A DNA stretch of 64,000 bases, taken from the NCBI RefSeq assembly GCF_009746125.1, contig NZ_CP041352.1:3146436-3210435 (forward strand). Reading direction: 5' to 3'. This stretch comes from Casimicrobium huifangae (GTDB lineage: Bacteria > Pseudomonadota > Gammaproteobacteria > Burkholderiales > Casimicrobiaceae). The first letter of the stretch is position 1. Every line of letters begins with the position of its first letter. The position numbers and the translations under genes are program-made. Of the stretch, positions 41,231-64,000 are shown piece after piece. The notes under the pieces were generated by a model, which was not told the DNA's origin, made no database searches, and saw only the letters and a list, made by a program, of their open reading frames with translations.

Positions 41231-41419
41231 GCCCGGACATTAGCCCCCGCGGCATGCAATGGCAACCATTGATGTGTCGTGCGAAACGACAGATGTCTTG
41301 GTAGCAATTCAGAGCAAAGGTCAGAAAAAGCAGCTTGGCGCTTATCTGAACAGGCCGTGGCGACGAAGCTCGCGGCGATAACTTCTGAAGTGCAGGTGAA
41401 ATTGCACGCCGTCAAAATA

Positions 41420-41435
41420 CTGTATAAAATTACAG
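41420..41435 (+). promoter_or_regulatory. LexA (SOS) box CTGTATAAAATTACAG
   Basis: CTGT-N8-ACAG is a perfect match to the LexA consensus of proteobacteria. It ends two bases before the imuA ATG. A TTGCAC (-35-like) lies at 41402-41407 and TATAAA (-10-like) at 41423-41428, so repressor and polymerase would compete. This places imuA-imuB-dnaE2 in the SOS regulon. Confidence 0.9.
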
Positions 41436-41437
41436 TT

Positions 41438-42403: not shown

Positions 42404-42416
42404 GGCGTGTTAAGCA

Positions 42417-43847: not shown

Positions 43848-43880
43848 GCAAGCACAACGTCCCGGTATCAGGCATTACCG

Positions 43881-46800
43881 ATGAAACCTGTCTATGCGGA
43901 GCTTTTTTGTCGCTCCAATTTCAGCTTCCAGCATGGCGCATCCCACCCGGAGGAGCTGGTTGAAACTGCGTACGACCTTGGCTATGGTGCCCTTGCCATC
44001 ACTGACGAATGCTCGCTGGCGGGTGTAGCGCGCGCCTTTACCTCATGGCGAGATGCCTGTGAAAAGAGAGGGCATTCAATTGAAAGCTCTCCGCTGCGCC
44101 TGATCGTTGGTGCCTGCTTCCGCTGTGATGACAGCGAGATCATCCTGCTGGCGAAAACCCTCAGCGGCTACGAACATCTATGCCAGCTTGTGACCCGGTG
44201 TCGGATCGATACCGACAAGGGCACCTATTCCTTCGATCCGGGCGAGCTGTCAGCAATCAGGCAATGCTGTGCAATCATCATTCCCGGTTCATCCTCAGAA
44301 GTGCTGGGCACACTAATAGAGAAGACCAGCCAGCTTTCATGCGCCATTGGCTTCGTGCGCAAATTGACCGCAACCGATCCCCTGCGCTTCGAGCATGCGC
44401 TTTCTGTGGCACAGAAGCACACCCTGCCTTTAACCGCTTGCGGCGATGTACTCATTCATGACAAATCCCGACAGGGTTTGCGCGACATTTTGTGCGCAGT
44501 CAGGAATCACACCACAGTGGATCAATTGGGCGAACTTGCCGAACAAAATGCAGAGCGTTGTCTGAGGCCGCTCACCGCGCTGACACATCTCTACCCCGCT
44601 GAATTGCTGTTGAACAGCGTGGCAATTGCGAGGCTTTGCACTTTTACGCTGGCAGAGCTTCGCTATCAATACCCTGAGGAGTTTGTTCCTGCGGGACTGT
44701 CTGCAGCAAGATACCTTCGCAAGTTGACCCGCCTCGGTGCCAACCGCCGCTATCAAAACCACATTCCATCGAAAGTCAGAAGCCAGCTGAGGAAAGAATT
44801 CCGACTGGTCACCGAGAAAAAGTATGAGGCCTATTTTCTGACCGTGTACGACATCGTGCGTGAGGCACGGCGTCTGGAGATTCTTTGTCAGGGCCGTGGC
44901 TCTTCGGCGAATTCCGCGATCTGCTATTGCCTGCACATCACGGAACTTGATCCCGCACGATGTCATCTGCTCTTTGAGCGCTTCATCTCCAAAGAACGCG
45001 ACGAGCCGCCGGATATCGACGTCGACTTCGAACACGAGCGAAGGGAAGAAATCATTCAATACGTGTTCAAACAGTACGGCCGTCATCGTGCAGCGCTCTG
45101 CGCAACGGTCATTTGCTATCGCACCAAGGGCGCAATCCGTGATGTCGGCAAGGCGCTCGGGTTTTCTGAAGATCAGCTTGACCGCATCAGCAGGAATCTC
45201 TCGTGGTGGGACAAAAGGTCTGAACTGCACCAGCGGCTCGCCGAAATTGGCTTCGATGCTCAGGTGCATCGCGTTCAGCAGTTGCTCAAATACACCGCCG
45301 AGCTACGCGGTTTTCCCCGACACCTCTCGCAGCACCCGGGGGGCTTTGTGCTGGCCGAGCACCGGCTCGACAAGAAGGTCCCCATCGAAAACGCAACGAT
45401 GCCCAACCGCACCGTGATTCAATGGGACAAGGATGACATTGAAGAGCTGGGCATGATGAAGGTCGACATCCTCGGGCTCGGCATGTTGTCCTGCCTGCGC
45501 CGCTCCATGGCACTGGTCGCACAGCAGACCGGTCAGCCGTTCACCATGCACGATATCCCGAAGGAAGATCCGGCTGTGTACGAGATGCTTTGTTGCGGCG
45601 AGAGTACGGGTGTCTTCCAGGTCGAATCTCGCGCGCAAATGAACATGCTGCCGAGGCTGAAGCCAGAAAATTATTTCGATCTGGTCGTACAGATTGCCAT
45701 CGTTCGCCCCGGGCCGATACAAGGTGGCATGGTTCACCCCTATCTCAAGCGTCGCCAGGGGGTTGAGGCTCAAAGCTACCCTTCGTCGGCCGTCGAGAGC
45801 ATCCTGAAACGTACGTTGGGCATTCCGATTTTTCAGGAGCAAGTCATGGAGCTATCCATGAAAGCGGCCGGTTTTTCAGCCGGTCAGGCCGACAATCTGC
45901 GCCGCTCAATGGCAGCCTGGAAACGCAAGGGCGGCCTGGGTCATCTGAAGGAGAAATTGATCAATGGCATGCTTGAGCGCGGCTATACCTCCGAGTTTGC
46001 GGAATCCATTTACAGACAGGTAGAGGGCTTCGGCAGCTACGGCTTCCCGGAATCACACGCAGCGAGCTTTGCCATTCTGGCCTACAACTCGGCATGGGTT
46101 AAGTGCCATCATCCTGCCGCCTTTTGTTGTGCCCTGCTCAACAGTCAGCCGATGGGCTTCTATTCGCCATCACAGTTGATACAGGACGCGCAAAAGAATG
46201 GCGTACAGATATTGCCCGTTGACATCAATGCGAGTGACTGGGATTGCGCACTGATCTTTAATCATCCGGATCCAGAAAAAAGAACCGCAGGCAAAACCAT
46301 GCTGCGCCTCGGGTTACGCATGGTTAGCGGCATCAGCGAGACGGTCGCTGGTGACATCGTCAGGCTACGGCAGGAGATTCCGTTTTCGAGCATTCGCGAC
46401 GTTGTGCAGAGAACGGGTATTGGCACCAAAGTCATCAACGCACTGGCTGACGCCGACGCTTTCAGGCTACTGGCCGGTAACCGGATCCAGTCAAAGTGGA
46501 TGGCCGCCGCTTCGAAATTGCCCGATCTTCCGGCGGCACCATCAGACATCAGCAACGCAGCAGCGCCGCTCAAGCCCCTCACGCTTGGCCAGGAAGTCAT
46601 CGCCGATTACCGCAGCACCGGACTCACACTGCGCGTGCATCCCCTGAAACTGCTGCGCGGTCTGCTGGCTGGCACCCAGCAGGCTGCGAGTCTCAAAAAG
46701 ATTCCCTCCGGTCGCAATATCCGTGTGGCAGGGCTTGTTACCTGTCGCCAGCGCCCCGGCACAGCCAGCGGCGTCACCTTCGTCACGCTGGAAGACGAAA

Positions 46801-46994
46801 CCGGCAACACCAACGTCATCGTCTGGCGCGATCTGGCCGAGAAAGAACGACGTGCGCTGATTGCTTCCCGGCTGATGATTGTCCACGGCAAGCTTCAACA
46901 TCAGGGCCCAATCAGCCATCTTGTTGCAGCGCACATGGAAGACGCCTCGCATCTGCTTGCTGATCTTGCCGTGGCCTCGCATGACTTTCACTGA
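43881..46994 (+). CDS. dnaE2: Error-prone DNA polymerase DnaE2
   Basis: DnaE2 performs SOS mutagenesis across damaged bases. The 1037-aa protein starts with the PHP domain (YAELFCRSNFSFQHGASHPEELVETAYDLGY). The C-family polymerase palm has PPDIDVDFEHERREEI with catalytic Asp380/Asp382, and IAIVRPGPIQGGMVHPYLKRRQG and FPESHAASFAILAYNSAW follow. The C-terminal OB domain (GRNIRVAGLVTCRQRPGTASGVTFVTLEDETGNTNVIVW) completes the usual length. The start at 43881 is 33 bp after imuB. It is the last gene of the cassette. Confidence 0.96.
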   Translation: MKPVYAELFCRSNFSFQHGASHPEELVETAYDLGYGALAITDECSLAGVARAFTSWRDACEKRGHSIESSPLRLIVGACFRCDDSEIILLAKTLSGYEHLCQLVTRCRIDTDKGTYSFDPGELSAIRQCCAIIIPGSSSEVLGTLIEKTSQLSCAIGFVRKLTATDPLRFEHALSVAQKHTLPLTACGDVLIHDKSRQGLRDILCAVRNHTTVDQLGELAEQNAERCLRPLTALTHLYPAELLLNSVAIARLCTFTLAELRYQYPEEFVPAGLSAARYLRKLTRLGANRRYQNHIPSKVRSQLRKEFRLVTEKKYEAYFLTVYDIVREARRLEILCQGRGSSANSAICYCLHITELDPARCHLLFERFISKERDEPPDIDVDFEHERREEIIQYVFKQYGRHRAALCATVICYRTKGAIRDVGKALGFSEDQLDRISRNLSWWDKRSELHQRLAEIGFDAQVHRVQQLLKYTAELRGFPRHLSQHPGGFVLAEHRLDKKVPIENATMPNRTVIQWDKDDIEELGMMKVDILGLGMLSCLRRSMALVAQQTGQPFTMHDIPKEDPAVYEMLCCGESTGVFQVESRAQMNMLPRLKPENYFDLVVQIAIVRPGPIQGGMVHPYLKRRQGVEAQSYPSSAVESILKRTLGIPIFQEQVMELSMKAAGFSAGQADNLRRSMAAWKRKGGLGHLKEKLINGMLERGYTSEFAESIYRQVEGFGSYGFPESHAASFAILAYNSAWVKCHHPAAFCCALLNSQPMGFYSPSQLIQDAQKNGVQILPVDINASDWDCALIFNHPDPEKRTAGKTMLRLGLRMVSGISETVAGDIVRLRQEIPFSSIRDVVQRTGIGTKVINALADADAFRLLAGNRIQSKWMAAASKLPDLPAAPSDISNAAAPLKPLTLGQEVIADYRSTGLTLRVHPLKLLRGLLAGTQQAASLKKIPSGRNIRVAGLVTCRQRPGTASGVTFVTLEDETGNTNVIVWRDLAEKERRALIASRLMIVHGKLQHQGPISHLVAAHMEDASHLLADLAVASHDFH

Positions 46995-52651: not shown

Positions 52652-52659
52652 CGATATAT

Positions 52660-52677
52660 CTTGGCGGAGAGGGGGGC
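52660..52677. other. Left attachment site (att) direct repeat
   Basis: TCTTGGCGGAGAGGGGGG, identical to 58489-58506, where it is the 3' end (minus strand CCCCCCTCTCCGCCAAGA) of tRNA-Ser including the CCA. To the right of this copy the tRNA sequence is lost, which marks the element-host junction. Confidence 0.9.
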
Positions 52678-52783
52678 ATACAAACCGTCTTCCAAACCCG
52701 TCCCAGAGAATCCAAAGCAGCGCCATTTCCCATAGGAAAATAGCCAATCCACATCGAATGTAATTCTTGACGCTTCCAGCGCC

Positions 52784-52837
52784 GTCCCACAAAATCTAGG
52801 CATGGTTTGTGGGACGCTTTGGGGGACTCCCTAGCCC
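52784..52837. promoter_or_regulatory. Probable integrase arm-type sites, left end
   Basis: GTCCCACAAA (52784-52793) is the reverse complement of TTTGTGGGAC (52806-52815), and TTTGGGGGAC follows at 52818-52827. GTGGGAC and the following CTAGCCC recur at 58418-58447 on the right end. Placement upstream of the integrase start and near att fits arm binding by the N-terminal integrase domain. Confidence 0.65.
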
Positions 52838-52864
52838 TGCAACCCAGCACCGATATGGGGCAGT

Positions 52865-54118
52865 ATGGCTAAGGCAATCGACAAACTGACCGACCGCACC
52901 GTCAAGGCAATTAAGAAGCCGGGCTATCACGGTGACGGCAACGGGCTTTACCTGTGCGTGAAGCCGAGCGGCGCGAAGTCTTGGATTCTTCGCTACATGG
53001 TCGCAGGCAAAGCCCGCGAGATGGGCTTAGGCCCCTACCCTGCTTTTGGCCTTGCCGACGCTCGCGAACGGCGCAACGCTGAACGCCAGCGCATTGCGGA
53101 CGGTGTGGACCCCATTGAAGCCCGCGACGAACGCGAGCAAGCCAAGAAAGTCGCGCAGGCGAGGAAAAGCACATTCAGCGATTGCGTTGACCGCTTCCTA
53201 GCGGCAAAGTCTGCAGAGTGGACGAACACCAAGCATCGGGCACAGTGGCGCAGCACGCTAGACACCTACGCAGCGCCGCACTTCGGAGCATTGCCGGTTC
53301 AGGCCGTTGACACCGACATAGTGCTCAAGGCGCTAACCCCGATCTGGACAACCAAAACGGAAACCGCTAGCCGCGTGCGCGGGCGCATTGAGGCGGTTCT
53401 CGATTGGGCTACCGCTTCAAAGCTGCGCAGCGGCGAGAACCCGGCACGCTGGCGCGGCAATCTGGACAAGCTGCTGCCGAAGCCGGGAAAGATTGCCAAA
53501 GTCGAACATCATCCGGCCTTGCCTTATCGCGACGTGTACGCCTTTTTGCAACTGCTGGCGAACTCTGACGCGACCGCAGCGCGCGCACTCGAAACTGTCA
53601 TCTACACCGGACTGCGTACCGCCGAAGTCGTCGGCGCAACGTGGGAAGAAATTGACTTTGAAGCCGCAGTCTGGACTGTTCCTGCAAGCAGAATGAAAAT
53701 GAAAAAGGAGCACCGCGTCCCGTTGTCGGCGCCCGCATTGCAAGTGCTGCGCAACTGCTACGCAATGCGCGTCAATGACTACGTTTTCCCGTCGCCGAAC
53801 AGCACCGCAGGACGCCCGCGCCCGCTGTCAAACATGGGAATGTTGCAACTGCTAAAGCGCATGAAGCGCGCCGACATAACCCCGCATGGCTTCCGGTCAA
53901 CCTTTCGCGATTGGGCAGCAGAGCAAACCAACTTCCCGCGCGAGGTTTGCGAAATGGCGCTTGCCCACACGATTGGCAGCGACACCGAGCAGGCCTATCA
54001 ACGTAGCGACTTGCTAGAGAAGCGCGCCCGCCTGATGAGCGCATGGGCCACGTATTGCAACACGAAGCCGAACGACGCTGCGACCGTGACGCCGATCAAT
54101 CGTAAGGCAAAGGCATAG
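52865..54118 (+). CDS. Tyrosine integrase (P4 family, DUF4102 N-terminus)
   Basis: The 417-aa recombinase integrates and excises the element. The N-terminal arm-binding domain (YHGDGNGLYLCVKPSGAKSWILRYMVAGKAREMGLGPYP) is DUF4102. The core has catalytic Arg251 in YTGLRTAEVVGATWEEID, then His341 and Arg344 in HGFRSTFRDWA, His368 in LAHTIG and nucleophile Tyr378 in EQAYQRSD. All are present, so it should be active. The start is ATG at 52865, 28 bp after the left arm-type sites. It lies at the end of the element away from the intact tRNA, not beside it. Confidence 0.95.
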   Translation: MAKAIDKLTDRTVKAIKKPGYHGDGNGLYLCVKPSGAKSWILRYMVAGKAREMGLGPYPAFGLADARERRNAERQRIADGVDPIEARDEREQAKKVAQARKSTFSDCVDRFLAAKSAEWTNTKHRAQWRSTLDTYAAPHFGALPVQAVDTDIVLKALTPIWTTKTETASRVRGRIEAVLDWATASKLRSGENPARWRGNLDKLLPKPGKIAKVEHHPALPYRDVYAFLQLLANSDATAARALETVIYTGLRTAEVVGATWEEIDFEAAVWTVPASRMKMKKEHRVPLSAPALQVLRNCYAMRVNDYVFPSPNSTAGRPRPLSNMGMLQLLKRMKRADITPHGFRSTFRDWAAEQTNFPREVCEMALAHTIGSDTEQAYQRSDLLEKRARLMSAWATYCNTKPNDAATVTPINRKAKA

Positions 54119-54219
54119 AAAACCGCGAAGCCCTGACGCGGAGTATTCAGGGCATGCGACGGGACGCGATGACAACAACATCGCGCCCGCCTGACCAAAA
54201 CGAAAGGTGTTTTTTCATC

Positions 54220-54471
54220 ATGGCTAAAACTGATTCTAGGACTTCAATTTCCGGCGAACGCGCGGACATCGCACTGAACGCGACGTGGGAAATCGAAGGG
54301 CTTGCGGACATCGCGTTATCCAATATCCCGCCCGGAACGGAATCGCTCGCGCTTCGCGGTATCGTTGCGCGAATCAAATCGCTCAATTCCGCGATCATGT
54401 CGGCAATTGGCGAGCCCGATATGGCGGTGACCGACCTGCGCGAACGCGTCTATGTGTTACCGCGCCCATAG
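54220..54471 (+). CDS. Small hypothetical protein of the element
   Basis: An 83-aa protein in the element. The centre reads EIEGLADIALSNIPPGTESLALRGIVARIKSLNSAIMSAIGE, a helical and moderately hydrophobic pattern. AAAGGTG lies upstream, and the ATG at 54220 gives the shortest plausible form; an upstream in-frame start at 54154 is possible. It follows the integrase by 101 bp and precedes a larger unknown gene. I do not recognise a family or function. Confidence 0.55.
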   Translation: MAKTDSRTSISGERADIALNATWEIEGLADIALSNIPPGTESLALRGIVARIKSLNSAIMSAIGEPDMAVTDLRERVYVLPRP

Positions 54472-54489
54472 GGTCAACGGGGAAAGACA

Positions 54490-55341
54490 GTGAGAAAGTC
54501 ATCCAAGGCGGCGGAGACCGCTGACAGCAAAAACGCCAGCTACTACCGGCAACAGACGACAACAGGTCAACCTTTCCGGTCTCCGTTTGCGATGCTCAAC
54601 TTGACCGCGCATGATTGCCAACAGCAACGCGCTGCCGTGGGCATGTCCGACGATGATTTAGAGCGCGACAAGACAATCTTCAATCGCGTGATTGATAGCT
54701 ACATCGCGAAGCATGGCTACCCGGACACGAACGAAAAGGTTGATGCTTACCTTGCACTCGCATTCGAGTTCGTCATCGCTGGCATGCGCGACAGTCGTTA
54801 TCCGCAAGAACACTGGCCTTTGGTTGCTTGCCATGCCGCGCTAGTCACACTCAAGGGCGCACAAGACAAAAAGACCTTCAAAGTTGACGCGGCGATGACC
54901 AACATTGCGCTGTTCGCACAGGCGATGATGAACATTGCGTGGAAGCCAGTGCGCATGATTGCGCTTGAGAGCATCCTCGACAAAAGCCGCGTTGCAATTG
55001 ATGAGCAAGGGCGTGCTTTGGCTCTGCGTCAACAGGAAATTGACTACGCCCGACCACGCTTGAAAGCCTACGAACGCTTCGAAACGAACCAGACCCGAAA
55101 GGAGAAGCGGAGCGACATTTCTAAGGCAATCGAAAGCTATTTGCTGAGACACAGTAAGGCATCTGCCGACGAAGTTTTTGATGCGTTGGCAAAGCAGGCG
55201 ATTGGAAATAAATACGACTTTCACCGGCCTAGATACATGGGCTATGAACCCGAAATACGGCGACGCGACCGACGGGAAACCGTGCAAATGAAGATGCCCA
55301 GATTTCGAAATTTGGTGTCGGAGTTACGCCCGAAAAGCTGA
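54490..55341 (+). CDS. Hypothetical element protein
   Basis: The 283-aa protein starts at a GTG (54490), 18 bp after the previous stop. It is mostly helical. The central segment DAYLALAFEFVIAGMRDSRYPQEHWPLVACHAALVTLKGAQDKK looks like a soluble helical domain, and the C-terminus is very basic (RRRDRRETVQMKMPRFRNLV). The segment SKASADEVFDALAKQAIGNKY could be a winged-helix-like unit. This suggests nucleic-acid binding, but I recognise no family. It is followed by a 105-bp gap with a short hairpin (55405-55422) and then the AlpA-like gene. Confidence 0.6.
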   Translation: MRKSSKAAETADSKNASYYRQQTTTGQPFRSPFAMLNLTAHDCQQQRAAVGMSDDDLERDKTIFNRVIDSYIAKHGYPDTNEKVDAYLALAFEFVIAGMRDSRYPQEHWPLVACHAALVTLKGAQDKKTFKVDAAMTNIALFAQAMMNIAWKPVRMIALESILDKSRVAIDEQGRALALRQQEIDYARPRLKAYERFETNQTRKEKRSDISKAIESYLLRHSKASADEVFDALAKQAIGNKYDFHRPRYMGYEPEIRRRDRRETVQMKMPRFRNLVSELRPKS

Positions 55342-55404
55342 TTCGTTCACGGTTTATCGAACCCGTGAAAGTCGGTTTGTAGCATGCGCCTGAATTGCGC
55401 TGTA

Positions 55405-55422
55405 GCCCGGTAATTCCACCGG
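55405..55422. repeat. Hairpin CCCGGTAATTCCACCGGG
   Basis: Paired CCCGGT and ACCGGG around a small loop, preceded by TGTAG, lie in the 105-bp gap between the 283-aa gene and the AlpA-like gene. The unit resembles the GTAGCCCGG hairpin at 16045. It may be a dispersed unit or a regulator site. Confidence 0.4.
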
Positions 55423-55446
55423 GAGCAGCGTGATTGAAAGGCAACA

Positions 55447-55671
55447 ATGCAAGACAAATTGCAATCACCAGACGGCTTCCTGAACCTTGAAGCCACGCGC
55501 GAATTCGCAGGTGGCCCCGGCGTCAGCACGATCTACAAATGGATGAGCGAGGGCACCTTCCCTAAGCCCTACCCAATCGGCGCGAATCGTCGCGGTTGGA
55601 AAGTGAGCGAGCTAATCGCATGGCGGGACGCTCTACAACCGGTTGAGTACCGCACCAAGGAGACCGCATGA
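55447..55671 (+). CDS. AlpA-family (excisionase-like) DNA-binding protein
   Basis: This 74-aa product resembles the MerR/AlpA-type small HTH proteins of integrated elements: FLNLEATREFAGGPGVSTIYKWMSEGTFPKPYPIGANRRGWKVSELIAWRDAL, which ends with the family W-x2-SE(L/V)xxW pattern. AlpA-type proteins activate integrase or excision in P4-like elements. The ATGA overlap with the next gene supports co-expression. It is likely the switch protein of this element, by analogy. Confidence 0.78.
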   Translation: MQDKLQSPDGFLNLEATREFAGGPGVSTIYKWMSEGTFPKPYPIGANRRGWKVSELIAWRDALQPVEYRTKETA

Positions 55672-56057
55672 CCACGGGAGCGCCGCAAGGCGCTACCCAT
55701 GAAAACGACAACGCCCGTTTGCAGACGGGCGCTGAAGGGTTCGCAAAGCAAACCAGCTACGGGGCAAATGCTAGCTTACCCGGCAAGAAATGGGAATCCG
55801 TTTTGCGCTACCTGCTGAACGTCGGTTCATTGAACCGATTCGAGGCGGAAACAGCGGTTCACGATCACTGCTTACACACGTCGATTGCGAGCCTACGGCG
55901 TGACCTCGGCATCGAGTGCGGGCGAAAGTTTGAAACCGTGCCCTGCCTCAAGGGACAGGCGACGACGAGGGTAATGCGCTACTGGCTTGACCCGAACCCG
56001 GACAACCTGAAGCGCGCCCGCGCAGCACTCGGACAACGTGACGAGGCCGAACAATGA
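55668..56057 (+). CDS. HTH-type element protein
   Basis: The 129-aa protein starts inside the stop of the AlpA-like gene (ATGA). The first ~40 residues look disordered. The rest, SVLRYLLNVGSLNRFEAETAVHDHCLHTSIASLRRDLGIECGRKFETVPC, fits a winged-helix pattern in which HTSIASLRRD is a recognition helix. YWLDPNPDNLKRARAALG closes it. Similar proteins occur in small mobile elements, and their role is unknown. Confidence 0.65.
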   Translation: MTTGAPQGATHENDNARLQTGAEGFAKQTSYGANASLPGKKWESVLRYLLNVGSLNRFEAETAVHDHCLHTSIASLRRDLGIECGRKFETVPCLKGQATTRVMRYWLDPNPDNLKRARAALGQRDEAEQ

Positions 56058-56209
56058 CCCGCGCCTACTTGCTCGAATGGGCAGCGCAACTATGCGCCCG
56101 CTTCCCGGCAATGGGTGCCGTTCACGACCTGGCCTTAATGTCCACGGCTGAATTGTCCGGCCTGATCGCGTTTCTTGAGGCTAAACGGGCCTTGGAAGCG
56201 ATTCTGTAG
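56054..56209 (+). CDS. Small 51-aa peptide in the element operon
   Basis: The ATG overlaps the previous stop (ATGA), and the TAG is at 56207-56209, two bases before the next gene. The product starts MTRAYLLEWAAQLCARFPA and ends LIAFLEAKRALEAIL, a helical sequence. Continuous overlap on both sides makes it likely to be translated. I recognise no family. Confidence 0.5.
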   Translation: MTRAYLLEWAAQLCARFPAMGAVHDLALMSTAELSGLIAFLEAKRALEAIL

Positions 56210-56211
56210 TC

Positions 56212-56691
56212 ATGGGCAAGCCTTCCAAGTGGAAAGGCGCCCGCGAGCGCAGGGACGGCAATGCGTTCGTTCCTGTGCCTTGCGTGGTGTTGCAATCGGT
56301 CGCATACGTCGGTTTATCCGCACACGCCCGCATGCTCTTGTTTGATCTGTTGGCACAGTACAACGGGAAAAACAATGGTGCTCTCGCGTGTCCGTTTACC
56401 CAAATGAAAAAACGCGGATGGAAAAGCGAGGCGACACTGTTCAAGGCAAAGCAGGAGCTGGTAGCGCGCAAGCTGATTCACGAAACACGAATGGGTTCAC
56501 GTCCAAATCGTGTCAGCTACTTTGCTGTGACGTTCTACGATCTCGATGAGGACTCGCGATTAGAAGTCACCCGGCGCACGTTCCCGCGCGGCGCATGGAA
56601 ACTGCTTGAACCGATGCCGTTTGTCATCGGCAAACTGCCGTCGCAAAACGAATCGCTTACTACGCCTGCTGTAGTAGAGGAGACCGTATAG
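56212..56691 (+). CDS. Winged-helix protein with Rep-like pattern
   Basis: The 159-aa protein has the conserved segment FVPVPCVVLQSVAYVGLSAHARMLLFDLLAQYNGKNNGALACPFTQMKKRGWKSEATLFKAKQELVARKLI, a helix-turn-helix common to small element-encoded proteins near replication loci. The Arg/Lys-rich start and the block TRMGSRPNRVSYFAVTF follow. The C-terminal codons overlap the first iteron-like repeat at 56659. Together with those repeats, it could be a replication initiator or a repressor that binds them; which one is not shown. Confidence 0.6.
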   Translation: MGKPSKWKGARERRDGNAFVPVPCVVLQSVAYVGLSAHARMLLFDLLAQYNGKNNGALACPFTQMKKRGWKSEATLFKAKQELVARKLIHETRMGSRPNRVSYFAVTFYDLDEDSRLEVTRRTFPRGAWKLLEPMPFVIGKLPSQNESLTTPAVVEETV

Positions 56692-56793
56692 CTACGCCCG
56701 CTGTAGTAGGGAAATCCAAAAGGCGGCCTTGCTACTACGCCTGCTGTAGCTATCGCGGGCCAATTTCAATCCCCCCTACTACGCCTGCTGTAG
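56659..56793 (+). repeat. Four iteron-like repeats ACTACGCCTGCTGTAG
   Basis: The 16-bp unit occurs at 56659-56674, 56734-56749 and 56778-56793, and a variant CTACGCCCGCTGTAG is at 56692-56706. Spacing is about 32, 43 and 44 bp. Each unit has partly symmetric ends (CTAC..GTAG). The first is inside the 3' end of the HTH gene, and the others lie in the 186-bp gap before 56878. Such arrays are typical of binding sites for a replication or control protein. Confidence 0.85.
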
Positions 56794-56877
56794 ACCTTTC
56801 TAGAAATACCATCTTGCACGGTCTCAAGTGAGAAGCCTGCAAGGATGATCTTCACACCGAAAACTCAGGAGAACATC

Positions 56878-57189
56878 ATGATTGACTCACGCGACCCATT
56901 TTTTCAGCGTCTTTTCGGTTGGCTGTCATCGCGACCAGCAAGCGGAACCGGCTTGCTTGGAAACACTGACGTTACGCCGGGAGTTACAACACGAAGGGGC
57001 CTGCTCGGGCCTAGCGAACCGGGAATCGTCGTTCAGGCCGCCGACGTACCAAATCAACCTTGGTACAAGCGGGGCTTAGGTTACATCCCGGACGGGCAAG
57101 CGACGCCGCAGGAACTAGATGAAATGACCGACGCCGAGCTATCCCAATGGTGGCATCAATTCAACAAGAAGAAAGGCGACAGCAAATGA
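56878..57189 (+). CDS. Hypothetical element protein after the iterons
   Basis: The 103-aa protein starts at 56878; AGGAG lies just upstream. It has a hydrophobic N-terminus (FFQRLFGWLS), a Gly-rich middle (GTGLLGNTDVTPGVTTRRGLLG) and an acidic C-terminal helix (ELDEMTDAELSQWWHQFNKKK). I recognise no family. Its stop overlaps the OB-like gene by 4 bp (ATGA). Confidence 0.55.
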   Translation: MIDSRDPFFQRLFGWLSSRPASGTGLLGNTDVTPGVTTRRGLLGPSEPGIVVQAADVPNQPWYKRGLGYIPDGQATPQELDEMTDAELSQWWHQFNKKKGDSK

Positions 57190-57473
57190 TTGCTTGCATG
57201 GTCTCTGGCAGACTGAAGGAGAAAGCCAAATGGCATATCAAGATGCCGCGCGTCACGACGATCACGACTGCCACGATGATCGCGACCGACGCCGCAAACC
57301 GGGCAACGCAGGTGCTTATCGAAACGACCGACGACGATCTAGGCCGGACGTTGCGCAAGTTGGACGCGGGCGCGATGCTCACCGTCACGGGAGAAATTGC
57401 TTTGCAACCCGTCGGCAAGGTGTTGATGCGGGCGCGTGCCGTAACTCTGTTAGTTGAGCCAGCTAACGCTTAG
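57186..57473 (+). CDS. OB-fold/SSB-like small protein
   Basis: The 95-aa protein starts at the ATGA overlap. The pattern MIACMVSGRLKEKAKWHIKM, TATMIATDA, LIETTDDDLGRTLRKLDAGAMLTVTGEI is what one expects for the strands and turn of a single OB fold, as in SSB and PriB. It lacks a long acidic tail. A role in handling the element's single-stranded DNA is plausible but not proven. It ends 11 bp inside the convergent secreted-protein gene. Confidence 0.55.
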   Translation: MIACMVSGRLKEKAKWHIKMPRVTTITTATMIATDAANRATQVLIETTDDDLGRTLRKLDAGAMLTVTGEIALQPVGKVLMRARAVTLLVEPANA

Positions 57474-58116
57474 GTATCGTCAGCTCTTTAACCAACTTGG
57501 TGAAACAGTCCTCGAAAGCACTGCCGGGCTGAGTTGAACGCTCCCTTACAAATTTTCCGTTGCGCATGTCAGTGTTGGTAACAGATAAGTCCACGTCAAC
57601 TCGTTGGTCAATTCCCTTTTCACCACGACTGTAGCCAATCGTTATTGACTTCCCCAGCGAAGCGTCAGCGATGAGGCCAATGATTGCACTGTCGAGTTTG
57701 ATGGAGGCAACAACGTATCCGGGCTCATCCGACGGCTGCGAGGCGACCGTATCCTTTGCTGTCGATCCTGCTGATCCAACCGCGTAGATAAAGTCCGGCG
57801 CCTTACTGGCTCCGATAGACCCGTCAGCGTTGGGCTTGAACACGCCGACTCTCAACGCGGGCGCAATGAACTTTTCGCCGGGTTTCCCAAACAGATTCAG
57901 GACGAAAGCGCCGCGCACCACTGCGACCTCACCGCGCCAGTAAGCAGTGTCTTTCGTTGTCGCAGCGAACAACATGGAGCATCCAGCTAACTCGCCACGG
58001 GTGTAAATCGGTTCTGCCTTTACTGCGGTGGTCCCGAAGAAGTCGCTTGGCCAATCGTTGGTCGCGTGCGCCGATCCCGCAACCGTTGCCAGAAGCAGCA
58101 GCCCCAACACTCTCAT
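57463..58116 (-). CDS. Secreted cargo protein of the element
   Basis: The 217-aa protein starts at 58116; GGAGG lies close upstream. It has a signal peptide (MRVLGLLLLATVAGSAHA). The body has two Cys residues, many Gly and Asp, and strands such as YVVASIKLDSAIIGLIADASLGKSITIGYSRGEKGIDQRVDVDLSV. I recognise no family. It is the only minus-strand gene in the element, at its right end, where cargo genes are often found. An open frame upstream to 58239 has no signal for translation. Confidence 0.65.
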   Translation of the reverse strand: MRVLGLLLLATVAGSAHATNDWPSDFFGTTAVKAEPIYTRGELAGCSMLFAATTKDTAYWRGEVAVVRGAFVLNLFGKPGEKFIAPALRVGVFKPNADGSIGASKAPDFIYAVGSAGSTAKDTVASQPSDEPGYVVASIKLDSAIIGLIADASLGKSITIGYSRGEKGIDQRVDVDLSVTNTDMRNGKFVRERSTQPGSAFEDCFTKLVKELTIPKR

Positions 58117-58190
58117 AAGCCCCTCCAATCGCAAGCTTTGATCATCGCATGAAAGGCCAAATAGCCACTTGATGCGCGGCAACTTCCCGA

Positions 58191-58356
58191 TTCCGCGCGC
58201 AGGCACGCGCGCGAGGACGGAAAAATCCTTGTAAATCAATTACTTATCTCAAATTACAACGCTCTTTGTCGTTGGCTCAGGGCTGACAAATCGCACCCGC
58301 ATGGCTATCGGTGAACGCACAAAAATACGATCCGCGCAGGCGCACGCGCGCGAGGG
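58191..58356. repeat. GC-rich imperfect direct repeats flanking an AT-rich segment
   Basis: CCGCGCGCAGGCACGCGCGC at about 58193 and CCGCGCAGGCGCACGCGCGC at about 58332 are the matching cores, each followed by GAGG. Between them is an AT-rich part with the inverted pair TTGTAA (58229-58234) and TTACAA (58254-58259). No gene is in the gap 58117-58417, so this may be a promoter or a replication/regulatory region of the element. Confidence 0.5.
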
Positions 58357-58417
58357 TGTTGCGCAACAGCAACAGCGAGAATGGCAGCGTCAACCGCTCG
58401 CAACGGAGAGCCTCACT

Positions 58418-58447
58418 GTGGGACAGTTTGGGGGACTCGCCTAGCCC
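58418..58447. promoter_or_regulatory. Probable integrase arm-type sites, right end
   Basis: GTGGGAC (58418-58424) and TTTGGGGGAC (58427-58436), followed by CTAGCCC, repeat the arrangement at 52809-52837 with one extra base. Their position just inside the right att copy fits arm binding by the integrase. Confidence 0.65.
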
Positions 58448-58453
58448 AGAAAC

Positions 58454-58476
58454 GAAAAAGCCCTGAAAATCAGGGC
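58454..58476 (-). terminator. Terminator downstream of tRNA-Ser, supplied by the element
   Basis: GCCCTGA / TCAGGGC form a 7-bp stem (58460-58476). On the minus strand it is followed by T-run complement of AAAAA (58455-58459), so it can stop tRNA-Ser transcription. It replaces the host's CGGGGCTTTT terminator, now cut off at 52626-52651. Confidence 0.75.
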
Positions 58477-58488
58477 CTTAGCTTATGG

Positions 58489-58506
58489 TCTTGGCGGAGA
58501 GGGGGG
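58489..58506. other. Right attachment site (att) direct repeat inside tRNA-Ser
   Basis: TCTTGGCGGAGAGGGGGG, the 3' end of tRNA-Ser (CCA at 58492-58494) plus three bases. It is identical to 52660-52677. Confidence 0.9.
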
Positions 58507-58579
58507 GATTCGAACCCCCGATACCTTGCGGTACGCCTGATTTCGAGTCAGGTACATTCAACCACTCTGCCACCTCTCC
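58492..58579 (-). tRNA. tRNA-Ser (anticodon CGA)
   Basis: The reverse strand gives an 88-nt tRNA. The acceptor stem is GGAGAGG with CCTCTCC, then discriminator G and an encoded CCA. The anticodon loop is CTCGAAA between CCTGA and TCAGG, so the anticodon is CGA (reads UCG). A long variable arm, typical of Ser tRNAs, lies before the GGGTTCGAATCCC T-arm. The 3' end is the integration site of the element. Confidence 0.95.
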
Positions 58580-58644: not shown

Positions 58645-59046
58645 TCAACCCTTGGCTGGCGTCGGCTTGGCGCCGGTGCTCGCTTTCGCCGCCGCCGGAT
58701 TCGCGGTGTTCTGTGTTTTTGGCGCCGCTGCCTGCTTTTGGCCCAATGCTTCAGAAGACGACGGTTGCGCCGCAGCTACCGGCGGTGGCGCTGGGGGCAC
58801 CCATGTTGATGGCGGCACAGTCTTGCCGGCGGCCTTCATTTCGCGGAAGTAGCGCTCTGCGCTTTTGTCCTGATAGCGCCCGAGGTCCGCAGCTTCCTTC
58901 TTGGCAACTTCAGCCGCCTTTGCCTTGGTTTCCTCGGCCTTGGCTTTCTGTTCGTCGGTGAGAACAGGCGTCGGCAACTTCGCGATCGCCAACGTGGTCA
59001 GGGCGCTGCCGATGCACAGCACGAGCCAGTGATTCAGTCTTTTCAT
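58645..59046 (-). CDS. Small exported Ala/Pro-rich protein downstream of formate dehydrogenase
   Basis: The 133-aa protein starts at the ATG at 59046, one base overlapping the stop of the gamma-subunit gene. A signal-like segment (HWLVLCIGSALTTLAIA) leads into a Lys/Glu/Ala helix (EQKAKAEETKAKAAEVAKKEAADLGRYQDKSAERYFREMKAAGK). The tail is Pro/Ala-rich and looks disordered. It is the last gene of the operon. I recognise no named family; the helix may dock on the enzyme or membrane. Confidence 0.65.
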   Translation of the reverse strand: MKRLNHWLVLCIGSALTTLAIAKLPTPVLTDEQKAKAEETKAKAAEVAKKEAADLGRYQDKSAERYFREMKAAGKTVPPSTWVPPAPPPVAAAQPSSSEALGQKQAAAPKTQNTANPAAAKASTGAKPTPAKG

Positions 59047-60104
59047 CAATCATCTCCTCCGACAATAGCCGGCTTGCCTTGGGCAGGCGTCTGCGACTGA
59101 GGTTTCGCAGCCTCAGCCTTTGCCTTGTGGTACCAGATCTCGTGGTGCTCTTTCGCCCACACCTCGTCAACTTCTCCGGTCTTCATCGCACCATAGGCGC
59201 CCGCCACGCCGAGTGTGCCCATGTAGATGTGCCCCAGCGCACCGAGCATGAACAGGATGGCGCCAGCCAGATGCACCAGGCTCGCTATCTGCATGGTAGC
59301 CCGCGTTTGTCCGAAGTTCGGGAAGTTAAGCACGAGGCCAGAGATGCCCACCACCAGGCCAAGCACCGTCACACCACCCCAGAACCAGACTTTCTCACCA
59401 GCATTGAATTTTTCGCTGGGCACATGCCCGTCCGAGAAAAGCCCGCCAAAACTGGCGACCCACTTGATGTCGACGAGCTTCGGCACATTGTCGCGAACAA
59501 ACACGACGAAAGTCACGATACAGCTCAGCACGAATAGCGGACCAAGGAAGTTATGCAGATTCTTGGCGATGATCGCCAGCCACGAGAACAGCGTAAAGCC
59601 GAACACCGGGATCAACAGCGTCTTGCCAAACGCCATGATCAATCCGGATACAGCAAGAACGCAGAACGTGATCGCCGTTGTCCAGTGCGACATGCGTTCA
59701 ACCACCGAAAAACGCGGCAGCATCCGGCCAGACGGCGCCTCATGCAACTGGATCGTGCCGCGCCACATGTAGAACGCAGCGACCACCAGCGCCATGACCA
59801 CCAGCGCCCAGCCGCCGATGACCGACACCTTGCCGTTGCGCAAAGCCCGCCAGTTCTGCCCGCCATCCTGGATCAGCACACCCGCCTCCGGCGCCGGAAT
59901 GCTGGCGTAGCCCTGAACTGCACCACGCACTTCCTTCCAGATCGGCGCGTTGTTGTACGGCTGCTGCACGGTACGCTGCTGCTGTTGCTGCGTCAGCTCT
60001 TCACGAGGCAGCGACGGCCCGGAGCTTTGCTGGGCAGACATTGTGCCCGCCAGCAGTGAGCCACCGAGCGCCAGTGCTCCCACCCACGCAATCAAGCGCT
60101 TCAT
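59046..60104 (-). CDS. Formate dehydrogenase gamma subunit (cytochrome b556)
   Basis: The membrane subunit that takes electrons from the beta subunit to quinone. The 352-aa protein has a signal-like N-terminus (MKRLIAWVGALALGGSLLAGTMSA), a periplasmic segment, and four later helices with the heme-binding His residues: ERMSHWTTAITFCVLAVSGLIMAFG, KNLHNFLGPLFVLSCIVTF, ASLVHLAGAILFMLGALGHIYMGTLG. GGAG lies upstream of the ATG at 60104. It is longer than FdoI of E. coli, because of the periplasmic extension. Confidence 0.92.
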   Translation of the reverse strand: MKRLIAWVGALALGGSLLAGTMSAQQSSGPSLPREELTQQQQQRTVQQPYNNAPIWKEVRGAVQGYASIPAPEAGVLIQDGGQNWRALRNGKVSVIGGWALVVMALVVAAFYMWRGTIQLHEAPSGRMLPRFSVVERMSHWTTAITFCVLAVSGLIMAFGKTLLIPVFGFTLFSWLAIIAKNLHNFLGPLFVLSCIVTFVVFVRDNVPKLVDIKWVASFGGLFSDGHVPSEKFNAGEKVWFWGGVTVLGLVVGISGLVLNFPNFGQTRATMQIASLVHLAGAILFMLGALGHIYMGTLGVAGAYGAMKTGEVDEVWAKEHHEIWYHKAKAEAAKPQSQTPAQGKPAIVGGDD

Positions 60105-60132
60105 AAACCGCTCCCTGGTACAGCCATCAGGC

Positions 60133-60354
60133 TCAATTGACCCGCTTGTATTCGTTCTGGTTGTCAGCACGCGCGCGCAACTGCTTTTCCCAGGTTGCAC
60201 GATCGTTGTTGAACTTTTCGTTGTTATACGGTTTGTCGTCCGGCTTGGCGGCCGAGGTGCCCGGCTTGGCGGCGATCGTTTGCGGCTGCTCGCCGCAAGC
60301 GGACAACATCAAGGCGACCGCTGCGCCAGTGGTGATGAAAACAAGCTTGCTCAT
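60133..60354 (-). CDS. Small lipoprotein in the formate dehydrogenase operon
   Basis: A 73-aa protein whose ATG overlaps the stop of the beta-subunit gene (ATGA). It has a lipobox (GAAVALMLSACGEQ), so the mature part is about 54 residues and is lipid-anchored. The remainder is rich in Lys, Asn and Asp (NNEKFNNDRATWEKQLRARADNQNEYKRVN). Placement between the beta and gamma genes suggests a role in assembly or stability of the complex, which is inference. Confidence 0.7.
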   Translation of the reverse strand: MSKLVFITTGAAVALMLSACGEQPQTIAAKPGTSAAKPDDKPYNNEKFNNDRATWEKQLRARADNQNEYKRVN

Positions 60355-60992
60355 GATTTTTGCGCTGCCGGCTGAGCCGCTGCGGGGGCAGCCTGCTTGG
60401 CGTCCGGGCGACCGTATGCGGTGGCATGCCCCCAGAGGTCACCGCCACGACCGCGCCGCATCACGCGCTCACGATAGATGTCGGAGAGCACATCACCGTC
60501 GCCCGCCAGCAATGCCTTGGTGGAGCACATTTCTGCACACGCCGGCAGCTTGCCTTCGGCGAGACGATTGCGGCCGTACTTCTCGACTTCAGCCTTGCTG
60601 TGATCCTTCTCGGGACCACCGGCGCAGAACGTGCACTTGTCCATCTTGCCACGCAGGCCGAATGCACCCGCCTGCGGGAATTGCGGCGCACCAAACGGGC
60701 AGGCATAGAAGCAGTAACCGCAGCCAATGCAGAGATCCTTGTCGTGCAAGACGACACCGTCTTCAGTCTTGTAGAAGCAGTTGACGGGGCACACCGCCTG
60801 GCAAGGCGCGTCCGAACAATGCATGCAGGCGACCGAGATTGAGCGCTCGGCGCCAACGATGCCGTCATTGAGCGTGACCACGCGGCGGCGGTTCACACCC
60901 CAGGGAACATCATGCTCGTTCTTGCAGGCAGTGACACAGCCATTGCACTCGATGCAGCGCTCGGCGTCACAAATAAACTTCATTCGTGCCAT
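60351..60992 (-). CDS. fdh3B: Formate dehydrogenase FDH3 beta subunit (four 4Fe-4S clusters)
   Basis: The 213-aa electron-transfer subunit has four ferredoxin-type motifs: CDAERCIECNGCVTACKNEHDVPWG, CMHCSDAPCQAVCPVNCF, CIGCGYCFYACPFGAPQFP and CTFCAGGPEKDH with CAEMC. It lacks the C-terminal membrane helix of the E. coli FdoH, which is typical of the FDH3-type subunit. It ends in an Ala/Gln-rich tail. It lies 10 bp downstream of the alpha-subunit gene. Confidence 0.95.
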   Translation of the reverse strand: MARMKFICDAERCIECNGCVTACKNEHDVPWGVNRRRVVTLNDGIVGAERSISVACMHCSDAPCQAVCPVNCFYKTEDGVVLHDKDLCIGCGYCFYACPFGAPQFPQAGAFGLRGKMDKCTFCAGGPEKDHSKAEVEKYGRNRLAEGKLPACAEMCSTKALLAGDGDVLSDIYRERVMRRGRGGDLWGHATAYGRPDAKQAAPAAAQPAAQKS

Positions 60993-61002
60993 GACGTTCT
61001 CC

Positions 61003-63921
61003 TTAGGCCTTTACCACTTGGCAAACCGTGGTCTTGGTTTCCTGCATCATCGTGACCGAGTCGTACCCGTAGGTGGTTGCAGTGTTGACTGCTTCAGCAC
61101 GCACGATTGGGGCTGCACCGTCGGGATATTTCTCGAGCAGGTCCTTGCCCTGCCACCACCCCGAGAAGTGGAACGGAATGAAGGTCGTTCCTGGCCCGAC
61201 ACGTTCGGTAACCAGCGCCTTCACCTTGATCTGTGCACCAGTCGCCGCCTTGACCCACACGTAGTCGTTGTTGCGCACATCGCGATCATTGGCGTCCTTC
61301 GTGTTGATCTCGATGAAGTTCTCCTGCTGCAACTCGGCCAGCCAAGGGTTACTGCGAGTTTCTTCGCCGCCACCCTCATATTCAACAAGGCGGCCCGAGG
61401 TCAGCACCAGGGGGAATTTTTCATAGACCTTGTCAGCCACTGCTTTGTCCTGCACTGACTTGTACAGCGTCTTCAGTCGCCAGAAGGCACCGCCTTTGTC
61501 GGCATGAGTCGGATACTTCTTCGCCAGTTCGGCGCTGGTGCCATAGAGCGGTTCACGGTGCTGCGGAATTGCATCCGGGAAGTTCCATACAACCGCGCGC
61601 GCTTTGGCATTGCCAAAGGGATGACAGCCGTGGTTCTTCATGAATACACGGATTTGACCGCCCGTGAGGTCAGTCTTCCAGTTCTTGCCCTCGGCGCCCT
61701 TCTTCTCTGCTTCGGTGAGTTCGTCCCACCAGCCAAGCTTCTTGAGCAACACGTGATCAAGCTCAGGGTAGCCAGTCGTCAGGTCGGCCCCCTTCGAATA
61801 CGAACCGTCTTCGGCCAGCAGCGACACGCCATCGCGCTCGACGCCAAAGTTCGCGCGGAAATTGCCGCCACCGTCCATCACATGCTTGGACGTGTCGTAC
61901 AGATTGGGCGAGCCCGGATGCTTCATTTCCGGGGTGCCATAGCAGGGCCACGGCAGGCCAAAGTAATCACCGTTGCAGGGACCACCGTTCGCCTTGAGCG
62001 TTTTCGGATCGAAGGTGTTCATGTGCTTCATGTGAAGCTTCAGGCGCTCCGGCGATTGCCCGGTGTAGCCAATCGTCCAGGTGCCCTTGTTGATCTCGCG
62101 AAGAATGTCTTCGATCAACGGTTCTTCCCACTTGCGCTCGCCATCAGGCTTCACGATCTTGCAGTTCTTGGCGAACTGCTCGGCAAAGCCGAACTTCTTC
62201 GCGAACGCGTACATGATCGCGTGATCAGTCTGTGATTCGAACAGCGGAGCGATCACCCGCTCGCGCCACTGGATCGAGCGGTTCGATGCCGTGGCCGAGC
62301 CACTGGTCTCAAACTGGGTGCACGCCGGCAACAGGTAAACACCGTCCTTGCGATCGGGCATCGCCGCCGAGGCCGTTGGATACGGGTCGATGATCACCAT
62401 CAAATCGACCTTTTCCATCGCCTTTTTCATTTCCGGGCCGCGTGTCTGCGAGTTCGGCGCGTGGCCCCAATAGACGATGGCGCGCAGGTTGGAATCCTGA
62501 TCAATGGTCTCGTTCGGATCGAGCACACCGTCGATCCAGCGCGACACCGTCATGCCAGGCTTTTCCATCATCGCCTGCGAGGCGAACTGCTTCTTCAGCC
62601 ACTCGTAGTCAACACCCCACACCGTTGCCCAGTGCTTCCAGGCACCGGTCGCAATGCCGTAGTAACCGGGCAGCGAATCCGGATTGGGGCCGACGTCGGT
62701 GGCACCTTGAACGTTGTCGTGACCACGGAAGATGTTGGCGCCGCCGCCGGACACGCCAATGTTGCCGAGCGCCAGTTGCAGGATGCAGCTGGCGCGAACC
62801 ATCGCGTTACCGATGGTGTGCTGGGTCTGCCCCATGCACCACACGATGGTGGACGGCCGGTTGGTTGCGAACATTTTCGCGATCTCGGCCATACGCGCCT
62901 CGGGCACGCCGCAGGCCTCTTCGACCTTGTCCGGCGTCCACTTGGTCATCACCTCTTCCTTGATCTTGTCCATGCCGTAGACACGATCATTGATGTACTT
63001 CTTGTCTTCCCAGCCGTTCTTGAAGACGTGATGCAGCAGGCCAAACAGGAACGGAATGTCCGAGCCTGAGCGGATGCGCACGTATTCGTCCGCCTTCGCA
63101 GCCGTGCGCGTATAGCGCGGGTCAACCACGATCATCTTGGCGCCGGTTTCCTTGGCGTGCAGCATATGCAGCATCGACACCGGGTGCGCCTCGGCGGCAT
63201 TGGAACCGATATACAGCGCACACTTGGTGTTCTGCATGTCGTTGTACGAGTTGGTCATCGCACCGTAGCCCCAGGTATTGGCTACGCCGGCGACCGTAGT
63301 CGAGTGGCAGATGCGGGCCTGATGGTCACAGTTGTTGGAGCCAAACATGCTCACAAACTTGCGGAACATGTAGGCCTGTTCGTTGTTGTGCTTCGACGAA
63401 CCAACCCAGAACACGCTGTCCGGCCCGGCCGTCTTGCGCAGGTCGAGCAGCTTGTCGCCCACCTCGCTCATGGCCTGTTCCCAACTGATGCGAACGTACT
63501 TGCCGTTCACCAGTTTCATTGGGTATTTCAGGCGATGTTCGCCATGGCCGTGCTCGCGAATCGCGGCACCTTTGGCACAGTGGGCGCCGAGGTTGATCGG
63601 CGAATCAAAAACCGGCTCCTGCCGCGTCCACACGCCGTTCTCGACGATTGCGTCAATAGCGCATCCGACCGAACAGTGGGTGCAAACCGTGCGCTTGACT
63701 TCCGCCTTTGCACCTGCGGCAGGTGCGTCGGCAGCTTCCGCCTTGCCGATCACTCCCAGCGGCAGCTGGCTGGCGAACGCACCGGCGCCAAGGCCAATGC
63801 CCGAGCGCTTGAGAAAACTGCGGCGGTCGAGCGTATTGCTCTGGCGACTTGCACTGAAGCGGCGGACGGTAGGGGCAGACAGCGGCGTGCCGTCAACGTG
63901 GTGAGATTTGCGAACCAGCAT
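61003..63921 (-). CDS. Formate dehydrogenase alpha subunit (molybdenum/tungsten bis-MGD)
   Basis: The catalytic subunit oxidises formate to CO2 in the periplasm. The protein (972 aa) starts at 63921 with GGAG upstream. It has a Tat signal (LDRRSFLKRSGIGLGAGAFASQLP) and a 4Fe-4S motif (CTHCSVGCAIDAIVENGVW, then GAHCAKG). The Mo ligand region reads CDHQARICHSTTVAG, with Cys205 where some FDHs have selenocysteine. VDPRYTRTAAKADEYVRIRSGSDIPFLFGLLHHV and QTQHTIGNAMVRASCILQLALGNIGVSGGGANIFRGHDNVQGATD complete the cofactor site. The window ends 79 bp upstream of the ATG, so the promoter is only partly seen. Confidence 0.95.
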   Translation of the reverse strand: MLVRKSHHVDGTPLSAPTVRRFSASRQSNTLDRRSFLKRSGIGLGAGAFASQLPLGVIGKAEAADAPAAGAKAEVKRTVCTHCSVGCAIDAIVENGVWTRQEPVFDSPINLGAHCAKGAAIREHGHGEHRLKYPMKLVNGKYVRISWEQAMSEVGDKLLDLRKTAGPDSVFWVGSSKHNNEQAYMFRKFVSMFGSNNCDHQARICHSTTVAGVANTWGYGAMTNSYNDMQNTKCALYIGSNAAEAHPVSMLHMLHAKETGAKMIVVDPRYTRTAAKADEYVRIRSGSDIPFLFGLLHHVFKNGWEDKKYINDRVYGMDKIKEEVMTKWTPDKVEEACGVPEARMAEIAKMFATNRPSTIVWCMGQTQHTIGNAMVRASCILQLALGNIGVSGGGANIFRGHDNVQGATDVGPNPDSLPGYYGIATGAWKHWATVWGVDYEWLKKQFASQAMMEKPGMTVSRWIDGVLDPNETIDQDSNLRAIVYWGHAPNSQTRGPEMKKAMEKVDLMVIIDPYPTASAAMPDRKDGVYLLPACTQFETSGSATASNRSIQWRERVIAPLFESQTDHAIMYAFAKKFGFAEQFAKNCKIVKPDGERKWEEPLIEDILREINKGTWTIGYTGQSPERLKLHMKHMNTFDPKTLKANGGPCNGDYFGLPWPCYGTPEMKHPGSPNLYDTSKHVMDGGGNFRANFGVERDGVSLLAEDGSYSKGADLTTGYPELDHVLLKKLGWWDELTEAEKKGAEGKNWKTDLTGGQIRVFMKNHGCHPFGNAKARAVVWNFPDAIPQHREPLYGTSAELAKKYPTHADKGGAFWRLKTLYKSVQDKAVADKVYEKFPLVLTSGRLVEYEGGGEETRSNPWLAELQQENFIEINTKDANDRDVRNNDYVWVKAATGAQIKVKALVTERVGPGTTFIPFHFSGWWQGKDLLEKYPDGAAPIVRAEAVNTATTYGYDSVTMMQETKTTVCQVVKA

Positions 63922-64000
63922 GATGAATCTCCGTAAAACCTTGGAGCGGCGACGCAATCGCCGCGAGTGCGCCTAGACGCGCGCCAGATCGTAGTAGGTG

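Follow-up and report, generated by a model that had tools for sequence, protein, structure and literature searches.

A phased inverted-repeat array as the putative iteron origin of a phage-satellite-like integrative element

An array of four inverted repeats at the 3' end of a winged-helix gene probably forms the iterons of a replication origin, which would belong to an integrative, phage-satellite-like element of 5.8 kb and have the upstream winged-helix protein as its probable initiator; this reading was reached by comparison of sequences. The array lies in a window of 64 kb, by which we mean the whole stretch of DNA that was analysed. Its position at the 3' end of the gene, the four inverted-repeat sites, the conserved A+T-richer core beside them and the resemblance of the protein family to O-like and RepA_N initiators together point to a replication origin. 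An earlier note on this DNA had left two alternatives, replication of the element or repression of downstream genes through the repeats; the comparative evidence given below favours the first and not the second.

The array itself was borne out as the earlier note had described it, with three exact copies and one variant of a 16-mer over 135 bp and the first copy within the 3' end of the winged-helix gene. All copies are on the plus strand, the second carries two mismatches, and the start-to-start distances are 32, 43 and 44 bp (Table 1). When up to three mismatches were allowed, the same four copies and no others were found in the window (expected 0.29), and four were reached in none of 100 shuffles. 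For the 15-mer core CTACGCCTGCTGTAG, the 4.47-Mb genome has the array's four places only at up to one mismatch. At up to two mismatches 20 places were found genome-wide, consisting of the array's four (0, 0, 0 and 1 mismatch) and 16 with two mismatches, and the reversed control gave 40. Copy 1 is translated as TTPAV within the ORF, copy 2 starts at the final base of this ORF, and copies 3 and 4 lie downstream of it. All copies form inverted repeats, with arms of CTAC/GTAG that are in part longer. Beyond what the earlier note had reported, a conserved block (B2) was found directly 3' of copy 4 and another (B1) between copies 3 and 4.

Table 1. Features of the element and of its putative origin, with positions in the window.
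Feature	Position	Strand	Remarks
Left direct repeat, putative attL, 18 bp	52659-52676		Identical to 58489-58506
Tyrosine integrase with Arm-DNA-bind_3, 417 aa	52865-54118	+	Three Pfam matches, E 2.5e-30 to 1.5e-20
AlpA-like excisionase/regulator, 74 aa	55447-55671	+	PF05930, E 1.6e-7
129-aa protein	55668-56057	+	Cluster common to 5 loci including the window
Winged-helix protein, 159 aa, putative initiator, little beyond the DNA-binding domain	56212-56691	+	Homologues, PHROG and structure matches
Iteron 1	56657-56677	+	Core 56659-56674; inside the gene's 3' end
Iteron 2	56689-56709	+	Core 56691-56706, 2 mismatches
Iteron 3	56732-56752	+	Core 56734-56749
Block B1, CTATCNGG..TTTT-like	56750-56775	+	Between iterons 3 and 4; from the 59-array alignment; weak match in the window
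Iteron 4	56776-56796	+	Core 56778-56793
Conserved block B2, AGACCTTTCTAGAAATACCATCTTGC, putative melting/loading core	56792-56817	+	Matrix score; lowest G+C of the region over 59 loci
Right direct repeat, putative attR	58489-58506		Overlaps the 3' end of tRNA-Ser(cga), 58492-58579 (-)

The element of about 5.8 kb (52659-58506) is read as integrative, its att sites being putative and deduced from the direct repeat. No intact empty site was shown among 17 genus genomes, the window's own included. Some part of the right flank was matched in each of these genomes, in several of them in the tRNA gene alone and in two outside it. The left flank was matched at 272-1107 in one other genus genome, on a contig different from that of the tRNA match in the same genome. 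Nine ORFs of the element were scanned with Pfam and PHROG, and neither a helicase-loading domain, primase or helicase nor a capsid or packaging gene was recognised among them. PADLOC gave no match to defence systems in six other ORFs of the element. The 129-aa protein of the window has no Pfam match, and the HTH_39 match of its cluster (E 0.00023, at the cut-off) belongs to the member L089:3781-4107. Between the integrase and AlpA genes there is a 283-aa ORF (54490-55338, +) with Pfam matches below the cut-off only and none in PHROG or PADLOC. On the 3' side of the array, and on the same strand, lie a 114-aa and a 108-aa ORF (genes from 56845 on). A 258-aa ORF on the opposite strand (57463-58239, -), whose inner start appears signal-peptide-like by eye, gave no match in Pfam, PHROG or PADLOC and is probably cargo. 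Outside the element, a stretch upstream (41279-46994, +) was judged by eye and is presumably an imuA-imuB-dnaE2 mutagenesis cassette. To the right of the tRNA-Ser gene, 59046-63957 (-) was likewise judged by eye and is presumably akin to a formate dehydrogenase operon.

No family match in Pfam, PHROG or NCBIfam was obtained with the winged-helix protein of the window itself. Its family resembles phage O-like and RepA_N initiators, by lines of support which are consistent and singly not conclusive. When 36 family members were scanned one by one, the O-like initiator PHROG phrog_678 was matched by 12 members, the window member not being one of them, another initiator PHROG family by 11 and a DnaD-like loader family by 10, with best E-values of 4e-6 to 1.5e-5. 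Nine of the 10 PHROG families listed for these members are initiator or helicase-loader families, and none is a terminase. The Pfam scan of the same members produced weak helix-turn-helix matches in a few of them; the RepA_N domain PF06970 was absent among the families matched, and the sequence similarity of the family to RepA_N is borderline (E 0.024). The AlphaFold model has a mean pLDDT of 72, with values of 85 to 96 per ten residues over positions 21-90 and mostly below 50 after position 124. No C-terminal loader-contacting domain was recognised in the approximately 35 residues past this position, and the C-terminal tails are not conserved within A1. Searched with Foldseek against solved structures, the model matched chains of RepA initiators in the top six places (E 0.0026 to 0.011, TM 0.34-0.39), with MarR-type regulators and CodY close behind and nothing under E 0.001. 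Among viral models the best match was a GpO N-terminal-domain protein (E 0.0023), and again none was under 0.001.

Homologues of the winged-helix protein were found in 6 of 64 family genomes and in 34 of 399 order genomes, the window's own genome being counted in both, and a profile search found them in 23 of 369 class genomes, including the own genome and two already-seen genomes. Two scans of viral contigs contributed 23 loci (5 + 18), including one fragment. When the window protein or its closest group served as the query, none of 13 and 21 stretches, respectively, proved to be a relative. Chromosomes often carry the family (31 of 346 good order genomes), whereas it is rare in phage records (1 of 50,697, two queries) and plasmid records (1 of 72,556, three queries), a distribution that may point to a large and little described group of satellite-like elements. 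The matching phage record, 16 kb long, has an integrase and lacks any annotated structural gene; in the matching plasmid record the gene lies inside an integrated, capsid-bearing element. No small plasmid with the gene, which would have been proof of a replicon, was found among the plasmid records.

The surroundings of the gene were compared in 64 loci. Of these, 55 have an integrase belonging to one cluster, a median of 2.9 kb upstream, and 19 have a short protein judged AlpA-like by eye. On the downstream side the genes differ from locus to locus: a capsid cluster occurs in 11, a prohead protease in 10, a portal in 9 and a terminase in 7 (the Pfam check being on one representative of each cluster). 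Some relatives are thus laid out like capsid-forming PICIs, and the element of the window is a smaller form, without a recognised packaging gene. In one relative (L053, 9138-13147) type I restriction-modification-like genes, identified by eye, follow the origin, so that the cargo differs among elements. A Cupriavidus element (L046, 5384-5900) carries about six copies of another repeat, and no B2 was found there; this array may be another origin layout.

The capsid, protease, portal and terminase genes downstream in these relatives would fit a packaging (cos-like) site, at which a small-terminase-like winged-helix protein binds the repeats and B2 is the cut site, and small terminases also use winged helices. 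However, the window element has the gene, the array and B2 with no packaging gene among its nine scanned ORFs, and the PHROG families listed for the 36 members are those of initiators and loaders rather than terminases. A block common to elements of different make-up would, we infer, also be unusual for a cos site, and we consider a packaging site highly improbable.

As to a replication origin, the array was examined across the relatives, with all loci turned to the gene strand. The relatives' arrays lie in or just past the 3' end of the gene and have a common layout: the inverted-repeat sites are about 22, 33 or 44 bp apart, sites 3 and 4 are separated by a T-rich block, and a conserved block follows site 4 directly. 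The gene contains all four sites in certain relatives, L092 and L103 for example, and iteron 1 alone in the window. Each array was scored by the strongest 15-mer family in the 330 bp after the DNA-binding domain, and 284 random stretches from the same loci served as the null (95% point 2.0, 99% point 2.8, maximum 4.0). The earlier note had proposed the co-occurrence of repeat and gene as a check, to be failed if related elements keep the gene and lack the repeat. Co-occurrence was what was found, with an array scoring above 2.0 at the same position in 56 of 71 scored loci (24/36 first-seen, 21/22 viral and 11/13 fresh class loci). The score passed 2.8 in 37 of the 71 (15/36, 17/22 and 5/13), 15 were not above the 95% null, and one exceeded the null maximum, which stems from random stretches with other repeats. 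It is the array and its layout that are kept, however, and not the 16-mer, which was found nowhere else in the window's genome and is replaced by different letters at the other loci.

The first locus set comprised 66 loci, of which 58 were scored (36 first-seen and 22 viral); those left unscored had no motif for the end of the DNA-binding domain (L016, L026, L028, L032, L034, L043, L084x, L086x). One phage and one plasmid record (L045, L046) and the named genome L010 are among the first-seen loci. The class set of 23 was obtained from 27 places by removing three repeats of loci already present (L110, L111, L117) and L135, a piece of the L123 gene; 10 of the 23 had no such motif and 13 were tested. 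L009 was dropped because it is the same locus as L020, L109 as a 49-residue fragment, and near-copies (L088/L089, L090/L091, L039/L040, L107/L108) were counted separately.

In the 37 strongest arrays the spacings fall into groups of 21-24, 32-33 and 40-46 bp. The best period for their 111 adjacent spacings was 11.0 (R 0.83), the spacings of related loci being non-independent, and the 48 spacings with the second site outside the ORF, which are free of a reading-frame effect, gave a period of 10.6 (R 0.82). Since the sites would thus lie on one helical face, a DNA-binding complex fits better than an RNA structure.

The block near CACCTCTATAGATTTACCATCT follows the last site directly in 59 of 70 loci examined, and the T-rich second block lies between sites 3 and 4 in the alignment of these loci. 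The 59 are the loci with a B2 score of at least 8 (6 for fresh loci) and are thus selected for the block. A B2 matrix was built from the 23 of 35 eligible loci in which a loose pattern was found; the window was excluded and L027, with an array not above the null, was included. With this matrix the block of the window scored 27.4 bits, the next best site on either strand of the 64 kb scoring 10.0. B2 outscored every other site of the locus, both strands considered, in 17 of 22 held-out viral loci. Three of the failures (L087, L099, L102) possess B2 with a 2-base gap, which was disallowed in the first scan, L100 was narrowly beaten by another site, and L106 has diverged. The gap was introduced after the viral test and before the class test, in which B2 was best in 12 of 13 fresh loci, with L119 failing. 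The held-out loci come partly from the clades of the training loci, and their independence is incomplete. A 22-base B2 consensus with up to two mismatches found five places in 399 genomes, all at known homologues. This consensus is insensitive: of the 34 order genomes with a homologue it detects 5, and the window is not among its matches. At three mismatches two further places appeared, neither at a known homologue, and the reversed control gave one match. The G+C content of the two 20-bp bins of B2 is 0.40 and 0.44, compared with 0.47-0.57 elsewhere, over the 59 loci selected for B2. Because B2 is common to elements with different iterons, it is probably read by something other than the iteron-binding surface.

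The same block bears on the possibility that the array is a set of operators, in which a MarR-like winged-helix protein would repress or activate the genes from 56845 on through four phased sites. MarR-type structures are among the near matches of the model, the 114-aa and 108-aa ORFs lie downstream on the same strand, and in some relatives the left arm of iteron 4 appears by eye -35-like, about 17 bp before a TATAGA-like B2. B2 as a promoter is nevertheless unsupported in the window, which has no sigma-70-like site there, the single match (56851-56879) lying past B2. The base preceding TAGA in B2 varies (0.35 bit), unlike that of a -10 element, and we know of no promoter counterpart of the conserved CCAT. 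Moreover, the genes after the array vary, with the capsid in some loci and others elsewhere, and in 12 of 46 loci, by crude ORF calls, the opposite strand carries the next ORF of at least 120 aa within 1.5 kb. The variable downstream genes, the opposite-strand ORFs and the absence of a recognised promoter at B2 of the window all take weight from an operator array, and we regard it as unlikely.

The letters of the iterons vary together with the protein. Iteron differences track winged-helix protein differences over 53 loci (Mantel r 0.557, permutation p 0.001, kinship uncorrected). Residue 74, where the predicted recognition helix begins, is the column most tied to iteron difference, with a partial r of 0.35 (next 0.17). 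Iterons of the form CCGN5CGG were found in 22 of 28 loci with D74 versus 2 of 25 without it; independent contrasts for this link amounted to 3 pairs on supported branches, and the sign test was not significant. The correlation with the protein also speaks against accessory integration or excision sites (arm or Xis sites) or a partition site. Such sites might be expected from the linked integrase and the AlpA-like short protein of many loci, but the nearer direct repeat is some 1.7 kb away from the array, which adjoins the initiator-like gene rather than att. This explanation has very little probability in our view.

Should the array be a replication origin, the winged-helix protein would bind the four inverted-repeat sites, probably as a dimer, and the bound sites would share one face of the helix, being separated by approximately 3, 4 and 4 turns here and by 2, 3 or 4 in the relatives. 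The assembled complex might then introduce a bend at the block separating sites 3 and 4 and open or mark B2, where replication proteins of the host or of a helper phage could load once the element is excised. On this view the origin would melt, a helicase would be loaded and the excised element would replicate, with dependence on a helper. More tentatively, and with somewhat more doubt than confidence, we suggest a replicon class outside the papers searched, found mainly among satellite-like elements integrated in Pseudomonadota, whose initiator is a near-bare DNA-binding domain. Its origin would have two layers, namely phased iterons that change with the recognition helix and an invariant core (B1, B2) read by a shared host or helper partner. 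If this is true, the fast change of the iterons would reflect an arms race, as between PLE origins and an origin-directed nuclease, and B2 would mark a common entry point of the replisome. No description of this protein family or of B2 was found in the open literature searched, a weak negative as subscription papers were mostly outside its scope. With its constant layout and changing letters, the system lends itself to testing which partner reads B2 and how replication is started by an initiator that has hardly more than a DNA-binding domain; B2 together with phased inverted repeats provides a signature for finding such elements.

The position of the array can be likened to that of the phage lambda O/ori-lambda, PICI and PLE origins, which supports replication as its function. 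In lambda and Stx phages the O iterons lie within the O gene, four of them in lambda (PMC7466680). Alike in both systems are a winged-helix initiator, a putative one here, iterons in or at the initiator gene and an A+T-richer stretch on one side. Here, by contrast, the protein ends soon after the DNA-binding domain, no P-like loader was recognised, the sites are 22, 33 or 44 bp apart, whereas lambda iterons are closer together, and B2 is common to elements with different iterons. Two reports on the PLE satellites of Vibrio describe semi-palindromic RepA_N iterons (PMC7145576) and an origin and DNA-binding domain that vary together among PLE types (PMC8263062). The RepA_N proteins (pSK41/pTZ2162 RepA; PLE RepA) are the best structural match, at TM under 0.4, and share semi-palindromic iterons with the present system, although no RepA_N Pfam match was obtained in the 36 members, a conserved C-terminal domain is absent here and the sequence similarity is borderline. 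In Gram-negative PICIs the integrase, AlpA and initiator genes are followed by an iteron origin 3' of rep, and two iteron sets flank an AT-rich region (PMC6092414, the latter in its Fig. 2 legend). The window element likewise has an integrase, AlpA and att (the latter inferred from the direct repeat), but its sites are arranged as 3 + 1 with B2 outside, and no primase (pri) was recognised among the nine scanned ORFs. Compared with capsid-forming PICIs, it is without capsid and packaging genes of its own among the nine ORFs scanned, and some of its relatives have them. The system differs from these known precedents in a protein with little beyond the DNA-binding domain, in the 11-bp phasing of its sites and in a B2 block that is common to different iterons.
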